NCBI GenBank assembly: GCA_021772675.1
Contig: JAJFLO010000169.1
Location: 1-64,000, forward strand
From: Verrucomicrobiota bacterium
GTDB taxonomy: Bacteria > Verrucomicrobiota > Lentisphaeria > JABSQK01 > JAJFLO01
Reading direction: 5' to 3'
DNA length: 64,000 bases
How positions within the stretch are numbered: position 1 is the first letter of the stretch; each line of letters starts with the position of its first letter. Positions 1 to 6,333 of this stretch are shown piece by piece. A model generated the notes under the pieces. It did no database searches and was not told the DNA's origin. It worked only from the letters and a program-made list of their open reading frames with translations. Made by a program: the position numbers and the translations under genes.

Positions 1-322
1 TGCAGAGTAATGGAGTTTTTTTCTGGCTTGAGAGAATGCACTGTCAGTGACCTCCAGGTCAGACATTTGATTGCCTTTTATCTGCTTGAAGAATTTTTCT
101 AATTCATTTTGGTTTGATGATCGGAGTAGATTGATCATAAAGGTAAAGAGAGTGGCAAAATCTAACGGCGACTTTCTGGTAAAGTCAGCAGGTGAGTATT
201 TATGGCGATCGATAAAATCTTTTGACGTAATAGAATTTTTTACTATATTAATTATATTGGCACAGAAATCGCTCATCATTTTGCGTGCCAACATTAACCT
301 TTTCGATGTATTTTTTTACCAT
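1..322 (-). mobile_element. IS4-family transposase, N-terminal part, cut by window edge
   Basis: Reading leftward from an ATG at 279, 93 codons stay open to base 1. The product has the N-terminal signature of IS4-family DDE transposases: DFTRKSPLDFATLFTFMINL, then NELEKFFK, then VTDSAFSQARKKL. The catalytic domain would lie outside the window. A better start is the ATG at 322, which follows an AAAGGAGAG ribosome site. That frame runs through a 7-A tract and ends after 24 codons; it joins the transposase frame only if one A is dropped. So the copy is frameshifted, carries a base-call error in the homopolymer, or starts at 279. Element ends are not identified. Family assignment is from recognised motifs. 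Confidence 0.8.
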
Positions 323-1037
323 TTTTCTCTCCTTTTTTATAATAAGTTTGTAGGTATTTCTTTTACAATAAATCATGCCATAATATATCACATAATGTAT
401 TTTTATTCAAGGGATTATGGAATGTTAAATTTTTCAAAATCCCCCCTTTTGAACTTGACTTTTTCACAATGGCTTAACTTAACGACATTGCCAGTAACCC
501 TGCATCGCATAAGGAATTCCTTTCAAGCATTTTTATGTGAAGGAAGAAGCGATTCCTTATTAGTAAAACCAGTATTGAACCGGTTTTTTATAAGCGTTAC
601 AGTTCTATTCACCATTACCTTTTGCACTGAAAGCTCATACGGATTAACTCCTGCGTTAATTAATAAGGCTGAATTGCTGCAAAAAACAAGAAAATTCGGA
701 AGAAAATTATATTTATTGAATGTGGGAAGAAGGAATTAATGAATAATGTTTTATGGGAAATCTACCCTTGTGACGATAATTATTTACTTAAGTTTTACAG
801 TTCATTATCCAGAATAAAGCCTTTTTCAAGAGAGGAAGAAAATATAACAACAAAAGAACGCAGCCTTACATATGGGAATTCTGTGTCTTCTGGTCAGGCT
901 CATAGTCAGTGAATAGGCTGTAGAACGAGTTCTTTCCCCAGATAGTGACATCACATCTTTGGCATTTAGATCCGCAATCATTGCTCAACTAATGACAATG
1001 CCTCTACCTGACAATAAGAGGCCCTTTTATTTCTGGC
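323..1037. other. Gene-poor decayed stretch with two small unassigned frames
   Basis: No recognisable gene. Two short frames are worth noting on the + strand. One runs from an ATG at 422 to a stop at 737-739 (105 codons, one hydrophobic patch). The second, 57 codons at 739-912, starts at an ATG overlapping that stop (TAATG) after a GAAGAAGG ribosome site. Neither product resembles a family I recognise. The larger frame that opens at 71 runs antisense over the IS4 fragment and is unlikely to be real as a whole. The stretch lies between two broken genes and probably consists of gene debris. Confidence 0.4.
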
Positions 1038-1757
1038 ATGTCAGTCCCAAATTTTGGGGAGAAGATGTCACTAATCCTGGTTAGCTTTTCGTTGCCTTTC
1101 GTTGTTGCTGAAGTTGTCCTGCGTTCGCTATTCCCATTGAATCCTTATCTTATGGAATTGAAAATTGTTGTTTTTGGTTCCATGGGTAAAAAGAAAATTG
1201 AGTTTGTTGCAATAATTTGTCAGGCAATCATCCGAAATAAGTCAGATGTTTTGTTTGTTATCGCCCCGCGCAATCCAGTGGAACCCTATCTGGAGACTAT
1301 AGTCACAATTTGTAACGAAAAAGGGATGCCATGGCATAAAATGAGTCAAGGGTGTGATAGAAAACCGACTCTGGACATTTTGATTTACAATGGATTTGGA
1401 AAACTACCTTCAATTTATGCTATCTCGGATATTATTCTGATCGGCGACAGCTTCATCAGAGATGGGGAGATCGGACACAATTTTATGGAAGGCTATGCAC
1501 TGGGAAAGCCCGTTGTTTTTGGAGAAGCAATGAACGCTACGCAGCCCTATGCAGATATGGCAATCGAAAGAGGCACCCCCATCAAAATTAGCCGAACAAA
1601 GAAGTTAATCTATACCTTGCCTGAATTGTTGCAGAATGAGGTGTATAGAGGAAAAATGGGAAGGCAGGGTAAACAATTCTATGATTAATTGTACGAGAAA
1701 AGGAGTGCTGCAAAAAATGTAGCCCAGGAAATATATAAATACCTCTCAAAATGTTAA
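1038..1757 (+). pseudogene. Broken KDO-transferase-like (WaaA C-terminal domain) gene
   Basis: Residues from about 39 on match the C-terminal GT-B domain of 3-deoxy-D-manno-octulosonic acid transferase: IVVFGSMG (usually GSTH), LFVIAPRNP (usually APRHPER), YAISDIILIGDSF, IGHNFMEGYALGKPVVFG. The family's GGS..GGHN loop is degraded. A TAA at 1686-1688 interrupts the frame. Beyond it the same frame continues for 22 codons (AKNVAQEIYKYL) to a stop at 1755-1757, matching the helix that normally ends WaaA. The N-terminal acceptor domain is missing. The first 38 residues instead form a hydrophobic segment (LPFVVAEVVLRSLFP) unlike WaaA. The gene is therefore a truncated, chimeric and nonsense-interrupted relic. 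Confidence 0.65.
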
Positions 1758-1784: not shown

Positions 1785-2684
1785 ATGCCTACTTACATCT
1801 ACACTGCCTACGGGTTAAACATTCATTCACAAATCCCTCTTCCGGAACTTTTGCCTGCCCGGAATGGACAGGCTGATATCTCCATTTGCTATGGGGAGGC
1901 GCCAGCTTCCCTGCCCAATTCATCGAGTCGATGTGGTATCTGGGAGGCTGTGCCGGGGAAGTTTTTGCTGGACGTCGCTCAGATCGCCAGATATTTCATT
2001 ATCGACGGTCGGGAAATCCGGGTCGAGCGCGCAGAAGGGAGTACCGATGACGAGGTGCGCGCTTTTTTGCTGGGCTCAGCGCTGGCAGCGCTGCTGCAAC
2101 AACGGGATATTCTGACCCTGCACGCCAGCGCCATCGAAACGGACCACGGAGCTGTGTTATTTCTGGGACGTTCCGGCAGTGGTAAATCGACATTGTTAAC
2201 CTCTTTGGTACAACGGGGCTATGCCATGCTGGCTGATGACGTCACAGGGATTACTCTGGATAAAAATGGCCTCCCGCAAGCACTGCCTGCCTTCCCATGC
2301 GCACGCCTATGGGCCGATGTAACCGACAAACTTCACTACGCCGATCGGGTGCTGCAACGCGTGCGTGCAGAGTTGGAAAAATACCGTCTGCCGATTGACC
2401 ATTTTTGTAACGATTTGCGTCCTGTTCATGCTACGTATGTGCTCTCAAGCTACAATCAGAGGCATATCGAATTGGAAACAGTAGAAAGTGTAGACCGATT
2501 CATGTGGCTATACAAATATACCTATCGCATGAGATTCTTGCGCGGACTTGAACTGGAATCGACCCATTTTAAGTCCGCTACAGAGGTAGCCAGACAGGTG
2601 AAGATGACCCTTGTGAAACGGCCGATACATCCATTTCTGCTGGATGAATTAGTTGATCTAGTGGAGCAAGATATTCTAGACTAA
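1785..2684 (+). CDS. HPr-kinase-like P-loop protein of a peptide-modification cluster
   Basis: The 299-residue protein has a weak N-terminal domain (1-105) and an HPr kinase/phosphorylase C-terminal-like ATPase fold. The Walker A loop is GRSGSGKST at 128-136. It is preceded by LTLHASAIE (H113), as in HprK relatives, and followed by an acidic LADD at 149-152. It lacks the full HprK N-terminal domain, so it is not expected to act on HPr. Relatives occur beside PqqD-like proteins and B2 proteases in ribosomal-peptide clusters, where some phosphorylate the peptide; that role here is inference. It lies 238 bp before the sulfotransferase on the same strand. Base composition is clearly more GC-rich than flanking genes, suggesting transfer. 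No strong ribosome site precedes the ATG. Confidence 0.75.
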   Translation: MPTYIYTAYGLNIHSQIPLPELLPARNGQADISICYGEAPASLPNSSSRCGIWEAVPGKFLLDVAQIARYFIIDGREIRVERAEGSTDDEVRAFLLGSALAALLQQRDILTLHASAIETDHGAVLFLGRSGSGKSTLLTSLVQRGYAMLADDVTGITLDKNGLPQALPAFPCARLWADVTDKLHYADRVLQRVRAELEKYRLPIDHFCNDLRPVHATYVLSSYNQRHIELETVESVDRFMWLYKYTYRMRFLRGLELESTHFKSATEVARQVKMTLVKRPIHPFLLDELVDLVEQDILD

Positions 2685-2922
2685 AAGGACTCGCATCAAT
2701 CTTCATTCTTATCACAACATTTAATTTTGGCTTTTATGTCTAGAAAATTCATGGAGTACGGGTAGATTCACTCCGCCAAACATAGTGAGACTAAAGAGAC
2801 CACGTTCGAAATTATTCACAGAATCTGCGCAATAAATAGAATTTTCTGCCAAAGGACGAATTTTCGTTTCATTACAAAACAAGTTTAGTTAATAATTTAG
2901 CATAACCCCCTATAAATCCCTA

Positions 2923-3786
2923 ATGTCCATTATTTGGTTAGCTTCTTATCCAAAATCCGGCAATACCTGGCTGCGTGCTTTTTTGACCAATTACCTTCGC
3001 GAAGGAGAGGAGCCGGCTAACTTCAACGAACTGATCGGAAAACTAATCGCTGCAGATCGAAATCTGTTTGATGACTATATTGGGCTTGAGTCATCTGATA
3101 TGACACGAGACGAGATCACGCGACATCGGCCGTTGTTCTACGAGCTGCTGGCCGCTGACTGTAAAAAGCCCTTTTTCATCAAAGTTCATGACGCGTACAC
3201 CGTTGACAGGGACGGACAAGCGCTCTTTCCAAAGCAGGCGACGACCGGGGTGATCTACATAATCCGCAACCCGCTTGACGTGGCTGTTTCATATGCACAC
3301 CATGAAAATAAATCTATGGACCACATTGTAAACCGGATGAATAGTGACGATTATGCCATGCTGGAGAAACCGAATACTCTTTATGCTGAATTTCCACAAG
3401 AGTTGCAGTCCTGGAGCAGTCATGTGCGCAGTTGGGTGGACGAACCCAATCAAAACGTACATGTCGTGCGTTATGAGGACATGCTGCAGCAACCAACCGC
3501 CATCTTCACTGAAGTTGTCGGTTTTTCCGGGCTGACGCTGGATACCACCTGCATCCAAAAAGCCATTGATTTTTCTTGCTTTAAATGCCTACAGAACCAG
3601 GAAGCAATCCAGGGGTTTGCCGAAAAGCAGCCTACAGCGCAATCCTTCTTTCGCCAGGGCGCAGCTGGATCCTGGCGGGAGCGTCTGACACGGAGTCAGG
3701 TTCGGCAGCTAGTCAATGCTCACCGTCCTGTGATGGATCGGTTTGGTTATCTGCTAGAGGCGGAAGCATTCTTACGTCGTTTATGA
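2923..3786 (+). CDS. PAPS-dependent sulfotransferase domain protein
   Basis: This 287-residue cytosolic-type sulfotransferase would move a sulfuryl group from PAPS to a hydroxyl or amine. The 5'-phosphosulfate loop is SYPKSGNTWLRAF near residues 8-20. The 3'-phosphate-binding segment is YIIRNPLDVAVSYAHH (about 110-126). The C-terminal RQGAAGSWRERLT corresponds to the family's KGxxGxWkxxfT motif, so the domain looks complete and intact. Its place between the HPr-kinase-like gene and a PqqD gene suggests a peptide or small-molecule substrate in a modification pathway; the substrate cannot be read from sequence. Like its upstream neighbour it is GC-richer than the genome around it. A truncated family A repeat begins 14 bp after the stop. 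Confidence 0.85.
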   Translation: MSIIWLASYPKSGNTWLRAFLTNYLREGEEPANFNELIGKLIAADRNLFDDYIGLESSDMTRDEITRHRPLFYELLAADCKKPFFIKVHDAYTVDRDGQALFPKQATTGVIYIIRNPLDVAVSYAHHENKSMDHIVNRMNSDDYAMLEKPNTLYAEFPQELQSWSSHVRSWVDEPNQNVHVVRYEDMLQQPTAIFTEVVGFSGLTLDTTCIQKAIDFSCFKCLQNQEAIQGFAEKQPTAQSFFRQGAAGSWRERLTRSQVRQLVNAHRPVMDRFGYLLEAEAFLRRL

Positions 3787-3800
3787 CATACTGAACACCA

Positions 3801-3916
3801 ACCTGATTAATTCATCCGGCATCTACTGCGTGTGCATATCTCACTTCATATAAGCGAATTATGAAGAACCCAAAGGCTTGAAATAGTTCACTATTCTTTT
3901 ACCTTCGAAACCTCAA
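3801..3916 (+). repeat. Family A palindromic element, truncated copy
   Basis: The left two thirds of a family A element, closely matching the copy at 37782-37964 (CCTGATTAATTCATCCGGC, then the central AATAGTTCACTATT palindrome, then CCTTCGAAACCT). The right terminal repeat is missing; the sequence becomes unrelated after about 3916. Confidence 0.8.
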
Positions 3917-4082
3917 AAAGTTTGAATTTTATAGGAGTAAGCTTGTTCTACTGTCCAATAGAACCACACTGGGAAACTTGATAAATTTTGAATATAGGAT
4001 GTCGAATTTTCCTATGAGTTTAATCTTTCTTTTTTCAGCATCCTCTGTTCGTCATTTATAATTCAATTTTAAAGAAGACGTT

Positions 4083-4364
4083 ATGGCTATACAACTTGAA
4101 ACTATTGTCGCCCGAAATGATTCGATAATGTTTAGTTATCTGGATAATAAATTACTGATGATGAGTATCGATAAAGGGGAATATTACAGCCTTGATGCCA
4201 TTGGTGCGAATATCTGGACTATGCTCGAAAAGCCGGCCTCTGTTGCTGAGTTGTGTGACATGTTTGTGACTGAGTTCGATGTCGGGCTGGAAACGTGCCG
4301 GCAGGATGTGTTGGCCTTTATGTATGAGATGTATGCGTTAGAGGTGATTACGATTAAGTCGTGA
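4083..4364 (+). CDS. PqqD-family RiPP recognition element protein
   Basis: A 93-residue stand-alone PqqD-like protein. PqqD folds (RiPP recognition elements) bind the leader of a ribosomally made peptide and present it to modifying enzymes. The family pattern is present: a beta segment LLMMSIDKGEYYSLDAIGANIW, then helices with MLEKPASVAELCDMFVTEFDV and a terminal helix ending in LEVITI. The sequence is collinear with the PqqD-like protein encoded divergently at 4637-4936, so the two are paralogues. It follows the sulfotransferase in the same direction. AAAGAAGACG before the ATG is a weak ribosome site. Confidence 0.85.
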   Translation: MAIQLETIVARNDSIMFSYLDNKLLMMSIDKGEYYSLDAIGANIWTMLEKPASVAELCDMFVTEFDVGLETCRQDVLAFMYEMYALEVITIKS

Positions 4365-4636
4365 TTTAGCATTTGGCGCTTGATAGCGTCTTGCTAGAAG
4401 CACGTCGGGAACGCTATGTCTACAGCAGAAAGGAAGCTGCACCATCAAAACCGAAGAAAAGAAAAGTTGAATTCCTTTCTGACAGGGAAAAAGGTCTCGG
4501 TCTATTTTTTTCGACTATAGGGGGCTACTGATGCCTATAATGCGTCAGTGCGACCCTCTCGCACGGGGATACATTATGTCACTCCCACTGAGTTAAAGTA
4601 TTAATGACATTGAGCTCTAATTGGAAGTTTGTTTCC
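4365..4636. other. Intergenic stretch with an unassigned 54-codon open frame
   Basis: Between two convergent PqqD genes. A + strand frame is open from 4370 to a stop at 4529-4531. Its product is rich in charged residues (SRKEAAPSKPKKRKVEFLS) but has no ATG and no family I recognise. It may be the tail of a deleted gene. No peptide precursor with a plausible leader is visible here. Confidence 0.3.
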
Positions 4637-4936
4637 TTAATTTTCGTTTTTTACAGTAATTATATTTTCCTTTAACAAATCATTGAGAAATGTTAAAACA
4701 TCACTTTCACATTGCTTTCTGTCGACTTCGAATTCTTCGAGAAGAACAACGCAAAGTTCTGATATTTCATGCGAATTTTCAAGTAACTCCCAAATACGGG
4801 TGCCGATTTTGTCTATGCCGTAATATTTCCCATTTTCAATACTCATCATGACCGTTTCACCATCCATTTCACTGCTTATTAATTCAGGATTACGTTCAAC
4901 GGTACTGGCTAATGCCAGTTTTTCTGATTCTTTCAT
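4637..4936 (-). CDS. PqqD-family RiPP recognition element protein (second copy)
   Basis: A 99-residue PqqD-like carrier on the opposite strand from the first. It shares the order VMMSIENGKYYGIDKIGTRI, then WELLENSHEISELCVVLLEEFEVD, then a final helix ending NIITVKNEN. This is the expected small winged-helix arrangement for binding a leader peptide. AGAGGATAAA lies upstream of the ATG as a ribosome site. It is oriented with the GNAT and B2-type genes further right, so one PqqD serves each half of the island. Two PqqD copies could mean two precursor types, or one fold-back duplication; the sequence does not decide. No precursor is encoded in the 173 bp between this gene and the GNAT gene. Confidence 0.85.
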   Translation of the reverse strand: MKESEKLALASTVERNPELISSEMDGETVMMSIENGKYYGIDKIGTRIWELLENSHEISELCVVLLEEFEVDRKQCESDVLTFLNDLLKENIITVKNEN

Positions 4937-5109
4937 AATATTTTATCCTCTTGTCGTTAAAGGTTAAATTAGCGCCGAACATTTATTTTGAACTGCACGA
5001 TTTTTTAGACACATATAATATTACTGTAAAACCTAATCTAATGCATGAAACACTATAGATTTATCTCAACATTACTGCTACCCCCGGCAGTCTCCAATTT
5101 CAAATTTTC

Positions 5110-5586
5110 TTACTCATTCCTATCGGGTAATCGCTCCATATAATAGTTTACAACCTGGTTGTCAATGGTAACAAAGCCTAGTTTTTCATAGAGTTTCAAT
5201 GCCGGGTTATTCACCTCGACATGGATGCGAACAGGTAGATTGGCTTTATCAGCTTCCGTAAATATAGTTTTTAACAATGATGAACCAAAGCCGTGATTAC
5301 GATAAACAGCCAACAACGCAATATCAATAATTCGAATTTCATCGTCACGGCGGTCCACATACAATCTGCCGATATCCACGTCATCATGAACAATAATATT
5401 GAAACTGGCATCGGAGAACTGCCCCTGGTATTGACGATATTGAGCATTAAACTGCATATCGATAAAATTCTGTTTCTCAGTTTCGCTCAAATCGAACATC
5501 TGCATTTCAGCTTCCCGTGTACTTGCATATACCGCTCTCAGAAACGGCATATCTTTCTTAAAATCTATTGAACGTAGACTTAACAT
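5110..5586 (-). CDS. GNAT-family N-acetyltransferase
   Basis: This 158-residue acetyltransferase would move acetyl from acetyl-CoA to an amine. The N-terminal half contains VYASTREAEM and a long helix FIDMQFNAQYRQYQGQF. The core is GRLYVDRRDDEIRIIDIALL, then the CoA pyrophosphate loop VYRNHGFGSSLL (R/QxxGxG pattern), then NPALKLYEKLGFV, the usual end of the fold. This sub-type, with YVDRR...IRIIDIAL, is commonly annotated beside other biosynthetic genes. It sits between a PqqD gene and the B2-type gene on the same strand, so a peptide-tailoring role is plausible but unproven. A full family A repeat separates it from the B2 gene. Confidence 0.85.
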   Translation of the reverse strand: MLSLRSIDFKKDMPFLRAVYASTREAEMQMFDLSETEKQNFIDMQFNAQYRQYQGQFSDASFNIIVHDDVDIGRLYVDRRDDEIRIIDIALLAVYRNHGFGSSLLKTIFTEADKANLPVRIHVEVNNPALKLYEKLGFVTIDNQVVNYYMERLPDRNE

Positions 5587-5616
5587 AAAAACTTATCGAA
5601 TTTGATCTCTGGGTTA

Positions 5617-5799
5617 TAGCCTGATTAATTCATGCGGTTTCTACTGTGAGCATATATCTTGTCTCATTTCAAATAGTTACGGAGAACCTCAGACCTCGAA
5701 ATAGTTCACTATTTCTGCATCCTCCGAACCATCATAACTCATTAATTTGAAGTCAAACTAAGTACTCTCGCGACGTAATCGCATGAATTAATCAGGCTA
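5617..5799 (+). repeat. Family A palindromic element, full copy
   Basis: About 183 bp with terminal inverted repeats: the left end reads TAGCCTGATTAATTCATGCG and the right end CGCATGAATTAATCAGGCTA. A central AATAGTTCACTATT palindrome and complementary inner arms would let a transcript fold into one long hairpin. It lies between two same-strand genes, and its right end supplies the stop codon of the B2-type gene. Confidence 0.9.
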
Positions 5800-6333
5800 A
5801 AGTCCGACAGACTGCTGGGCGTGGTCAATTTCCTCTGGGTATGGTTGTTTACTTTCCCACGCAAATGTTGAAACAACGGTAAATTTATTTTTACCACGAA
5901 ATCCTGTGATAAAGACATCACCACTTCTCACCCATGCATGGGCGATCAGCTCTTTTTCATCATCCTTAGCGACACCAAGATACACAGTGTTCTGAATTCC
6001 CCTTTTCTTTAACATACGGTTAACAGCAAGAGCCTGTACCAGACATTTACAGTTCCACGGTAAATACCAGCTTGTCAATCGGATGTAATATCCCAGATTA
6101 CGTACCAGTTGACGCTGGTGATCGTGTTGTTCATTAGGGGTTTCGTGCATGTATTTTCCTAAAGATGGGGCAATCCAACGAAACGGAAGTAAGATTAATA
6201 TCCGTGATACAAACAATCCTGAAATTGATTCTAATACTATAAATTTGTCTGTAGTGGAAAGCTGTAAAAAATTAAGTGGTGCTCTTATAAACCTGCGTAA
6301 AATACCGATCATTTTAAGACATTGAAAGGACAA
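5797..6333 (-). CDS. Lasso-peptide B2-type transglutaminase-like peptidase
   Basis: A 178-residue protein of the B2 (PF13471, transglutaminase core) family, which removes leader peptides in lasso-peptide pathways. The triad is visible: Cys97 in SWYLPWNCKCLVQALAVNRM, His132 in LIAHAWV, and Asp139 after a short turn. The N-terminal region has the usual hydrophobic helix (ISGLFVSRILILLPF). The ATG at 6312 is an alternative start. A complete lasso system also needs an asparagine-synthetase-like cyclase and a precursor; neither is in the window. The last eight residues (HAQQSVGL) come from the tip of a family B repeat and the TAG stop from a family A repeat end, so the native C-terminus was replaced. 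The catalytic part is intact. Confidence 0.85.
   Translation of the reverse strand: MSFQCLKMIGILRRFIRAPLNFLQLSTTDKFIVLESISGLFVSRILILLPFRWIAPSLGKYMHETPNEQHDHQRQLVRNLGYYIRLTSWYLPWNCKCLVQALAVNRMLKKRGIQNTVYLGVAKDDEKELIAHAWVRSGDVFITGFRGKNKFTVVSTFAWESKQPYPEEIDHAQQSVGL
5801..5820 (+). repeat. Family B repeat, right tip only
   Basis: AGTCCGACAGACTGCTGGGC matches the right end of the full family B element at 24382-24549 (AAAGTCCGACAGACTGCTAG). It directly abuts the family A element and is translated as the C-terminus of the B2-type protein. Confidence 0.75.

Follow-up and report, generated by a model that had tools for sequence, protein, structure and literature searches.

The window analyzed here, a stretch of 64,000 nucleotides from a genome of the class Lentisphaeria (7.28 Mb in 605 contigs), carries near its left end a six-gene island with the hallmarks of peptide modification, half of it on each strand. 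A sequence-only reading had assigned the genes to an HprK-like kinase, a sulfotransferase, two PqqD-like proteins, a GNAT acetyltransferase, and a lasso-type B2 peptidase; profile matches and motifs confirmed the positions, the families, and the integrity of all six open reading frames (ORFs). The PqqD-like proteins are discrete recognition elements (RREs) of the kind used for ribosomally synthesized and posttranslationally modified peptides (RiPPs), and the sulfotransferase is of the type dependent on 3'-phosphoadenosine-5'-phosphosulfate (PAPS).

1785-2684, plus strand: HprK-like kinase, K (HprK_rel_A, 1.2e-9)
2923-3786, plus strand: PAPS-dependent sulfotransferase (PF00685, 1e-27)
4083-4364, plus strand: first discrete PqqD/RRE, B1a (PqqD, 8.5e-16), 3' of the kinase and sulfotransferase genes on the same strand
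4637-4936, minus strand: second discrete PqqD/RRE, B1b (PqqD, 1.8e-19), beside the GNAT and B2 genes
5110-5586, minus strand: GNAT acetyltransferase (4e-10)
5797-6333, minus strand: leader peptidase B2 (NF033537, 1.3e-26; 93.6 bits, cut-off 33)

The catalytic features of these proteins are intact. The kinase contains His-113, the Walker A motif GRSGSGKS, and ADD, the same set as in lasso kinases (PMC10368454), and B2 retains Cys97 and His132 (AHAW) of the catalytic triad. The sulfotransferase keeps the motifs YPKSGNTWL and IRNPLDVAVS and is 44.7% identical to a homolog from a Bacteroidales lasso cluster; in many lasso clusters, it adjoins HprK and PqqD in the same order. B1b scores 102.5 bits against NF033536 (lasso_PqqD_Bac, the Bacillus lasso type), above the cut-off of 80. 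Two PqqD proteins and one B2 are encoded in the whole genome, all of them in this island. The view of B1 and B2 as the leader-binding and leader-cutting halves of a peptide-modifying system, with the kinase, sulfotransferase, and acetyltransferase as tailoring types, is well founded.

Neither a cyclase nor a convincing leader-bearing ORF is present on the 74-kb contig that contains the window (C78), where the matches to a precursor motif were rejected as out-of-frame or implausible ORFs. The absence reported by the sequence-only reading therefore holds for this contig but not for the genome, since a genome-wide cyclase search located a lasso-type cyclase on the 14-kb contig C271 (locus L034), preceded there by a precursor-like ORF. 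The genes of C271 are given in the order obtained by reversing that contig to the orientation of the window.

C271:13204-13788, plus strand in window orientation: Asp/Asn hydroxylase (PF05118)
C271:12272-12427, plus strand in window orientation: precursor-like ORF A, upstream of the cyclase gene on the same strand
C271:9579-11453, plus strand in window orientation: lasso-type cyclase C (NF033535, 412.5 bits; next family, 201.7)
C271:8950-9582, plus strand in window orientation: sulfotransferase (PF03567)
C271:7995-9026, plus strand in window orientation: glycosyltransferase of the GT8 family
C271:6890-7786, plus strand in window orientation: sulfotransferase (PF13469)

The Asn-synthase domain search of the whole genome returned 13 matches, 12 of them full-length proteins; the remaining one, on C508, is an unrelated protein that was matched weakly and only in part. 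Only the C271 protein has lasso cyclase as its best family, and its N terminus, MSAIFGLF, lacks the catalytic Cys2 of glutamine-using asparagine synthetases. The eleven other full-length asparagine synthases were rejected as cyclase candidates, their best family being of the exopolysaccharide (EPS) or generic AsnB type.

The product of ORF A reads MKSEKTKEEIRLNDNTPRKSWAKPTIETIIAVKQTE/SGGLAGKPEDATYRPS (leader/core). Its leader carries WAKP (in RKSWAKPTI), an instance of the WxxP motif that typifies paeninodin-type leaders (PMC13381572), and ends with Thr at -2 and Glu at -1, while the core has Glu at position 9 and a terminal Ser16. Lasso precursors are marked by a [Y/W]xxP leader, Thr at -2, and Asp or Glu at core positions 7 to 9; such a motif is expected 0.056 times per 14 kb. 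Three matches, none ending in Ser, occurred in 261 kb of other DNA from the same genome, and no match ending in Ser occurred in 3 Mb of random sequence. A terminal Ser is found in 28 of 38 candidate precursors of related loci versus 9.4% of long ORFs; this residue is the phosphorylation site of most characterized HprK-type lasso kinases (PMC8498205, PMC9266682), BsfK being an exception (PMC10368454). Furthermore, the core SGGHPWYKEDAHYTDPYLS of a Bacteroidales locus with an HprK-sulfotransferase-PqqD block (L081) shares SGG, E9-D10-A11, and Y13 with SGGLAGKPEDATYRPS. As the sequence-only reading had supposed, the candidate peptide is encoded outside the window.

The two contigs end in complementary parts of one type of mobile element. 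Position 1 of the window is the end of C78, where the following features lie.

1-489, minus strand: left end of an IS4-type insertion sequence (IS; NF033592 IS4, E = 0.0015), whose terminal inverted repeat AATGTCGTTAAGTTAAG ends at 489
490-500, no strand: target-site duplication, GGGTTACTGGC in the minus-strand reading, versus GGGTTACTGGT beside the right IS end on C271

The N-terminal half of the transposase, at window positions 1-294 (minus strand), runs off the contig; the right half of the IS occupies C271:1-457, with the C-terminal transposase half at C271 3-440 (plus strand). The IS is bounded by inverted repeats (AATGTCGTTAAGTTAAG...CTTAACTTAACGACATT), and this assembly contains at least 12 left and 11 right ends, most of them at contig ends. 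When all IS flanks were compared, those of C78 and C271 were identical at 10 of 11 bp in the same register, with the common part GGGTTACTGG[C/T]. The length and geometry of the duplication are fixed by three other contig pairs that share identical 11/11 duplications (C93-C395, C192-C557, and C130-C189), and by a rough estimate, the chance of a match of at least 10/11 among ~130 flank pairs is ~0.001. Because IS halves lie at both contig ends and the target-site duplications match, C78 and C271 appear to be neighbors separated by a single IS copy with an unassembled middle. The cyclase would then seem to be missing from the window because the assembly broke at this element.

We therefore consider it very probable that the island forms the distal part of a ~20-kb paeninodin-like lasso-peptide cluster that an assembly gap has cut at the IS4-type element. 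Read in the orientation of the window, the cluster comprises, in order, hydroxylase, A, C, sulfotransferase, GT8, sulfotransferase, sugar-type genes, sulfotransferase, IS4, HprK, sulfotransferase, B1a/B1b, GNAT, and B2. Two findings had been named by the sequence-only reading as speaking against its own proposal: the presence of a complete lasso set right beside the window and a failure of the six genes to co-occur elsewhere. The former is what C271 appears to provide, the transporter apart; as to the latter, the gene set recurs in other genomes.

In class Lentisphaeria, B2 scored above the cut-off in 8 of 198 genomes, including that of the window. Among eight B2 loci outside the window genome, PqqD is adjacent in all eight, HprK is present in four, and GNAT is present in two; a lasso-type cyclase lies within 10 kb of B2 in six of the eight, and in one further genome (G061, L115), it sits on another contig. 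The window GNAT is 48 to 49% identical to the GNATs of two other Lentisphaeria lasso loci. In 36 named loci gathered through a PqqD search, the order HprK-sulfotransferase-PqqD, usually together with B2 and a cyclase, occurs in Bacteroidales, Roseivirga, a metagenome-assembled genome of Bacillota, and alphaproteobacteria including sphingomonads; four of the alphaproteobacterial loci also have a GNAT. The Roseivirga locus (L073) combines, within ~11 kb, homologs of the window HprK, sulfotransferase, and PqqD with homologs of C271 genes, namely a sulfotransferase (41%), two intact hydroxylases (36 to 39%), a cyclase, and GT8, and it also has a precursor-like ORF. Since this locus joins both gene sets, it independently supports the unity of C78 and C271.

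It is very improbable that the C271 cyclase is instead part of an unrelated polysaccharide island and that the contigs are not neighbors. C271 does carry genes for a sugar epimerase, a GDSL protein, a methyltransferase, and a glycosyltransferase, and EPS-type asparagine synthases are numerous in this genome, but the type of the cyclase, the target-site duplication, and the Roseivirga cluster all argue against this explanation.

Several observations nevertheless weigh against the proposal of a split lasso cluster. The assembly contains no physical join between C78 and C271, and the duplication has one mismatch. At 412 bits, the cyclase falls below the strict NF033535 cut-off of 525, as do the cyclases of Roseivirga and other Lentisphaeria. 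No NCBIfam precursor model, including NF033524 (lasso_PadeA_fam), matched precursor A, which we therefore call paeninodin-like rather than a PadeA-family member; for NF033524, the precursor of related locus L079 lies above the cut-off and that of L081 lies below it. No lasso ABC transporter was found at 1 to 10 kb of C78 or on C271, whose right end is open, and of the 39 ABC matches elsewhere in the genome, none was connected with the cluster, the best ones showing no link to it. Lys acetylation by the GNAT was discarded as an assignment, with Lys occurring in just two of seven GNAT-linked cores. Finally, the locus may have eroded somewhat, as suggested by heavy invasion by mobile elements (IS4, MITE-like, and an IS200-type remnant; MITE, miniature inverted-repeat transposable element), a fragment of waaA, and the remnant of a hydroxylase gene. 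Decay, which the sequence-only reading also entertained, draws some support from these elements and remnants and from the lack of a detected transporter. However, full length and conserved motifs are retained by every one of K, the sulfotransferase, B1a, B1b, GNAT, B2, C, and A, and contig ends can account for the missing parts; a nonfunctional remnant of a lasso cluster is hence improbable.

The presence of two RREs bears on two further explanations. B1a and B1b are 37% identical, and their closest relatives differ phylogenetically. Both match the PbaB1 structure (PDB 9x90), B1b with 1.9e-18 and B1a with 3.6e-11, making B1b the closer to a paeninodin-type RRE. Both have Asp at the positions of PbaB1 G42 and Q79, as mapped from the phmmer alignment to 9x90; therefore, strict discrimination of WxxP by the window RREs is not predicted.

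One explanation is that two lasso clusters merged, with HprK, sulfotransferase, and B1a serving one precursor and B1b, GNAT, and B2 serving another, one set having lost its precursor and cyclase. The divergence of the RREs would fit such an origin, as would the opposite strands and differing G+C contents of the halves (0.51/0.49/0.43 for HprK, sulfotransferase, and B1a; 0.34/0.39/0.40 for B1b, GNAT, and B2) and a Sphingomonas locus in which two PqqD, two HprK, and two cyclase genes stand together. Since the genome has one lasso-type cyclase and one B2, however, both would now need to serve the two halves together. We regard a merger as possible but not probable; it is compatible with the split lasso cluster as an account of what the present locus does.

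The second explanation is a non-lasso RiPP route, the kind of system suggested by the sequence-only reading. In the form considered here, the second PqqD would be part of it, and B1, B2, and the tailoring enzymes would modify a peptide that stays linear, in broad analogy to the linear polyphosphorylated peptides (LPP) of Bacillota. LPP clusters co-localize with paeninodin-like clusters and have a second RRE (PMC13381572); in addition to the two divergent PqqD genes, our reading of the alignments places Asp of both window RREs at the position of the Tyr-binding D70 of LppB. Against this route, a lasso cyclase and a WxxP precursor lie adjacent across the IS, the same gene families recur elsewhere with cyclases, the 74 kb contain no convincing YxxP precursor, and Pfam scanning of the locus ORFs, to which the search was confined, revealed no SpI-type signal peptidase. 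It is highly unlikely as an account of this island.

Returning to the lasso cluster, characterized homologs point to the following pathway. B1 would bind the WxxP leader of A, and HprK would phosphorylate the hydroxyl of the C-terminal Ser16 on the linear precursor. The sulfotransferase(s), the hydroxylase, and perhaps GNAT and GT8 would attach further groups. B2 would then cleave after Thr(-2)-Glu(-1), and C would activate Glu9 and link it to the amine of Ser1, yielding a 9-residue ring with a 7-residue tail. Phosphorylation, leader cleavage, and cyclization are the better-grounded steps. Sulfation may involve Tyr13, which lies in an acidic stretch, and hydroxylation may involve Asp10, while acetylation and glycosylation may also take place. 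These targets are guesses for Tyr and Lys, because 10 of the 13 cores from sulfotransferase loci contain Tyr versus 11 of 19 others, a difference that is not significant (p = 0.23; Tyr sulfation as a rule was dropped), and because most GNAT-linked cores lack Lys. A division of labor between B1a and B1b is likewise conceivable. A product bearing phosphate on Ser16, sulfate on Tyr13, a hydroxylation, and possibly an acetyl group or sugar, made by RREs that split presentation between kinase/sulfotransferase and peptidase, is a doubtful prediction in its entirety. Were it true, the product would count as a sulfated lasso peptide, and a widespread class of sulfo-phospho lasso peptides would be marked by the HprK-sulfotransferase-PqqD(-B2-C) block.

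The closest known systems are paeninodin from Paenibacillus dendritiformis and its ThcoK/SyanK relatives, which likewise have discrete B1 and B2 proteins, a lasso cyclase, an HprK homolog, and a Ser-ended precursor with a WxxP leader. A putative sulfotransferase gene also occurs in some clusters of Firmicutes (PMC8498205). In contrast to paeninodin, the present cluster has two B1 genes, a GNAT, several sulfotransferases, an Asp/Asn hydroxylase, and GT8, with halves on opposite strands and a Lentisphaeria host, whereas a nucleotidyltransferase and a transporter were not seen. Pseudomycoidin (psm) shares an HprK-type kinase acting on a C-terminal Ser and a sugar-adding step, but there a nucleotidyltransferase homolog adds the sugar, a role that GT8 may play here. 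2-Oxoglutarate-dependent hydroxylase and GNAT genes are known from the canucin A (CanE) and albusnodin (AlbT) lasso clusters; CanE targets a C-terminal Asp and AlbT targets Lys10, whereas here the hydroxylase belongs to PF05118 and most GNAT-linked cores are free of Lys. LPP (Popov et al. 2026, PMC13381572) resembles the island in its HprK kinase and discrete RRE and is often found beside lasso clusters with a second RRE, but it uses an SpI peptidase and a YxxP leader and has no cyclase, unlike the B2, WxxP, and cyclase found here. No ORF with the LPP leader YxxPxVLxHQ is present on the 74-kb contig or C271. In addition, a table for Pontixanthobacter/Allopontixanthobacter gives B2, sulfotransferases, an aspartyl beta-hydroxylase, PqqD, an asparagine synthase-related protein, and a glycosyltransferase under near-consecutive cluster numbers (PMC10040529); in that table, the set appears among genes co-occurring with halotolerance rather than as a lasso cluster.

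The kind of system is not new; the novelty lies in the taxon and in how many tailoring genes are present. Our literature search for lasso peptides together with Lentisphaerota returned passing mentions only and no described lasso cluster for the phylum. An apparently cyclase-free RiPP island is explained as an assembly artifact. In short-read genomes, lasso clusters can be broken at insertion sequences, and any "orphan" B1/B2 island should therefore be followed past the ends of its contig. The HprK-sulfotransferase-RRE-cyclase block recurs in several phyla and offers a testable class of sulfated lasso peptides, since the lasso reviews consulted list the sulfotransferase gene as putative only and do not count sulfation among the shown modifications (PMC8498205, PMC9266682).

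A route of the cyclase-free kind may exist elsewhere. Sporomusa acidovorans (L071, 8942-13045) and S. ovata DSM 2662 (L072, 8974-12958) have HprK, PqqD, B2, a WxxP precursor-like ORF ending in Ser, and an ABC transporter in a row. No cyclase lies within 10 kb in either, and both genomes have Cys2-type asparagine synthases only, plus a weak 466-aa match in S. ovata. Possibly, these loci represent the B1/B2 RiPP route without a cyclase imagined by the sequence-only reading, and as no lasso-type cyclase was found in either genome, the idea may be worth testing there.

Among the other related loci, Sphingomonas sp. R647 (L099, 7.8 to 16 kb) has two HprK, two PqqD, and two adjoining cyclase genes, a tandem double lasso cluster. 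Two Lentisphaeria loci (L059, 1756-6962, in G132, and L061, 5571-8886, in G131) have at least six tandem MADPFLGEISIVG...GWAFCDGQ genes between the lasso cyclase and GNAT; we take these genes to be tail-collar-like.

The remaining features of the two contigs lie outside the proposed pathway or at its margins.

1038-1688, plus strand: fragment of a gene (waaA/kdtA) for 3-deoxy-D-manno-octulosonic acid (KDO) transferase (NF004388, with the alignment starting at profile position 247 of 425)
5617-5799, no strand: MITE-like element lying between GNAT and B2, outside the pathway, and bounded by 23-bp terminal inverted repeats TAGCCTGATTAATTCATGCGGTT
C271, after the PF13469 sulfotransferase: a 280-aa protein without a family, a sugar epimerase, a methyltransferase, and a GDSL protein
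C271:538-1380, opposite strand to the other C271 genes: sulfotransferase (PF00685)

The waaA/kdtA fragment, located between the IS and HprK, covers the C-terminal part of the family only and is probably a pseudogene outside the lasso system. The C271 group from the 280-aa protein to the PF00685 sulfotransferase may be a sugar locus rather than part of the lasso cluster. A second Asp/Asn hydroxylase gene has probably left a remnant at positions 12534-12665 of C271, next to the intact copy (41-bp repeat, 80%). A promoter and terminator scan gave results no better than chance level. Contigs are also broken by a second small element, which has ends GGGTGCGTTTTCAAAATGTGAC and 8- to 9-bp duplications and is present at C271 1482-1812 and 13871-14033 and on C549, C17, and C418. 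Joining the right end of C271 through its MITE was tried and rejected: C17 and C549 pair together by the duplication GTTACGAAA, and C418 has no match to C271. The TAGCCTGATTAATTCATGCGGTT MITE-like element recurs on the window contig, with a similar piece at ~3805-3930 and the same end sequence at ~37781.

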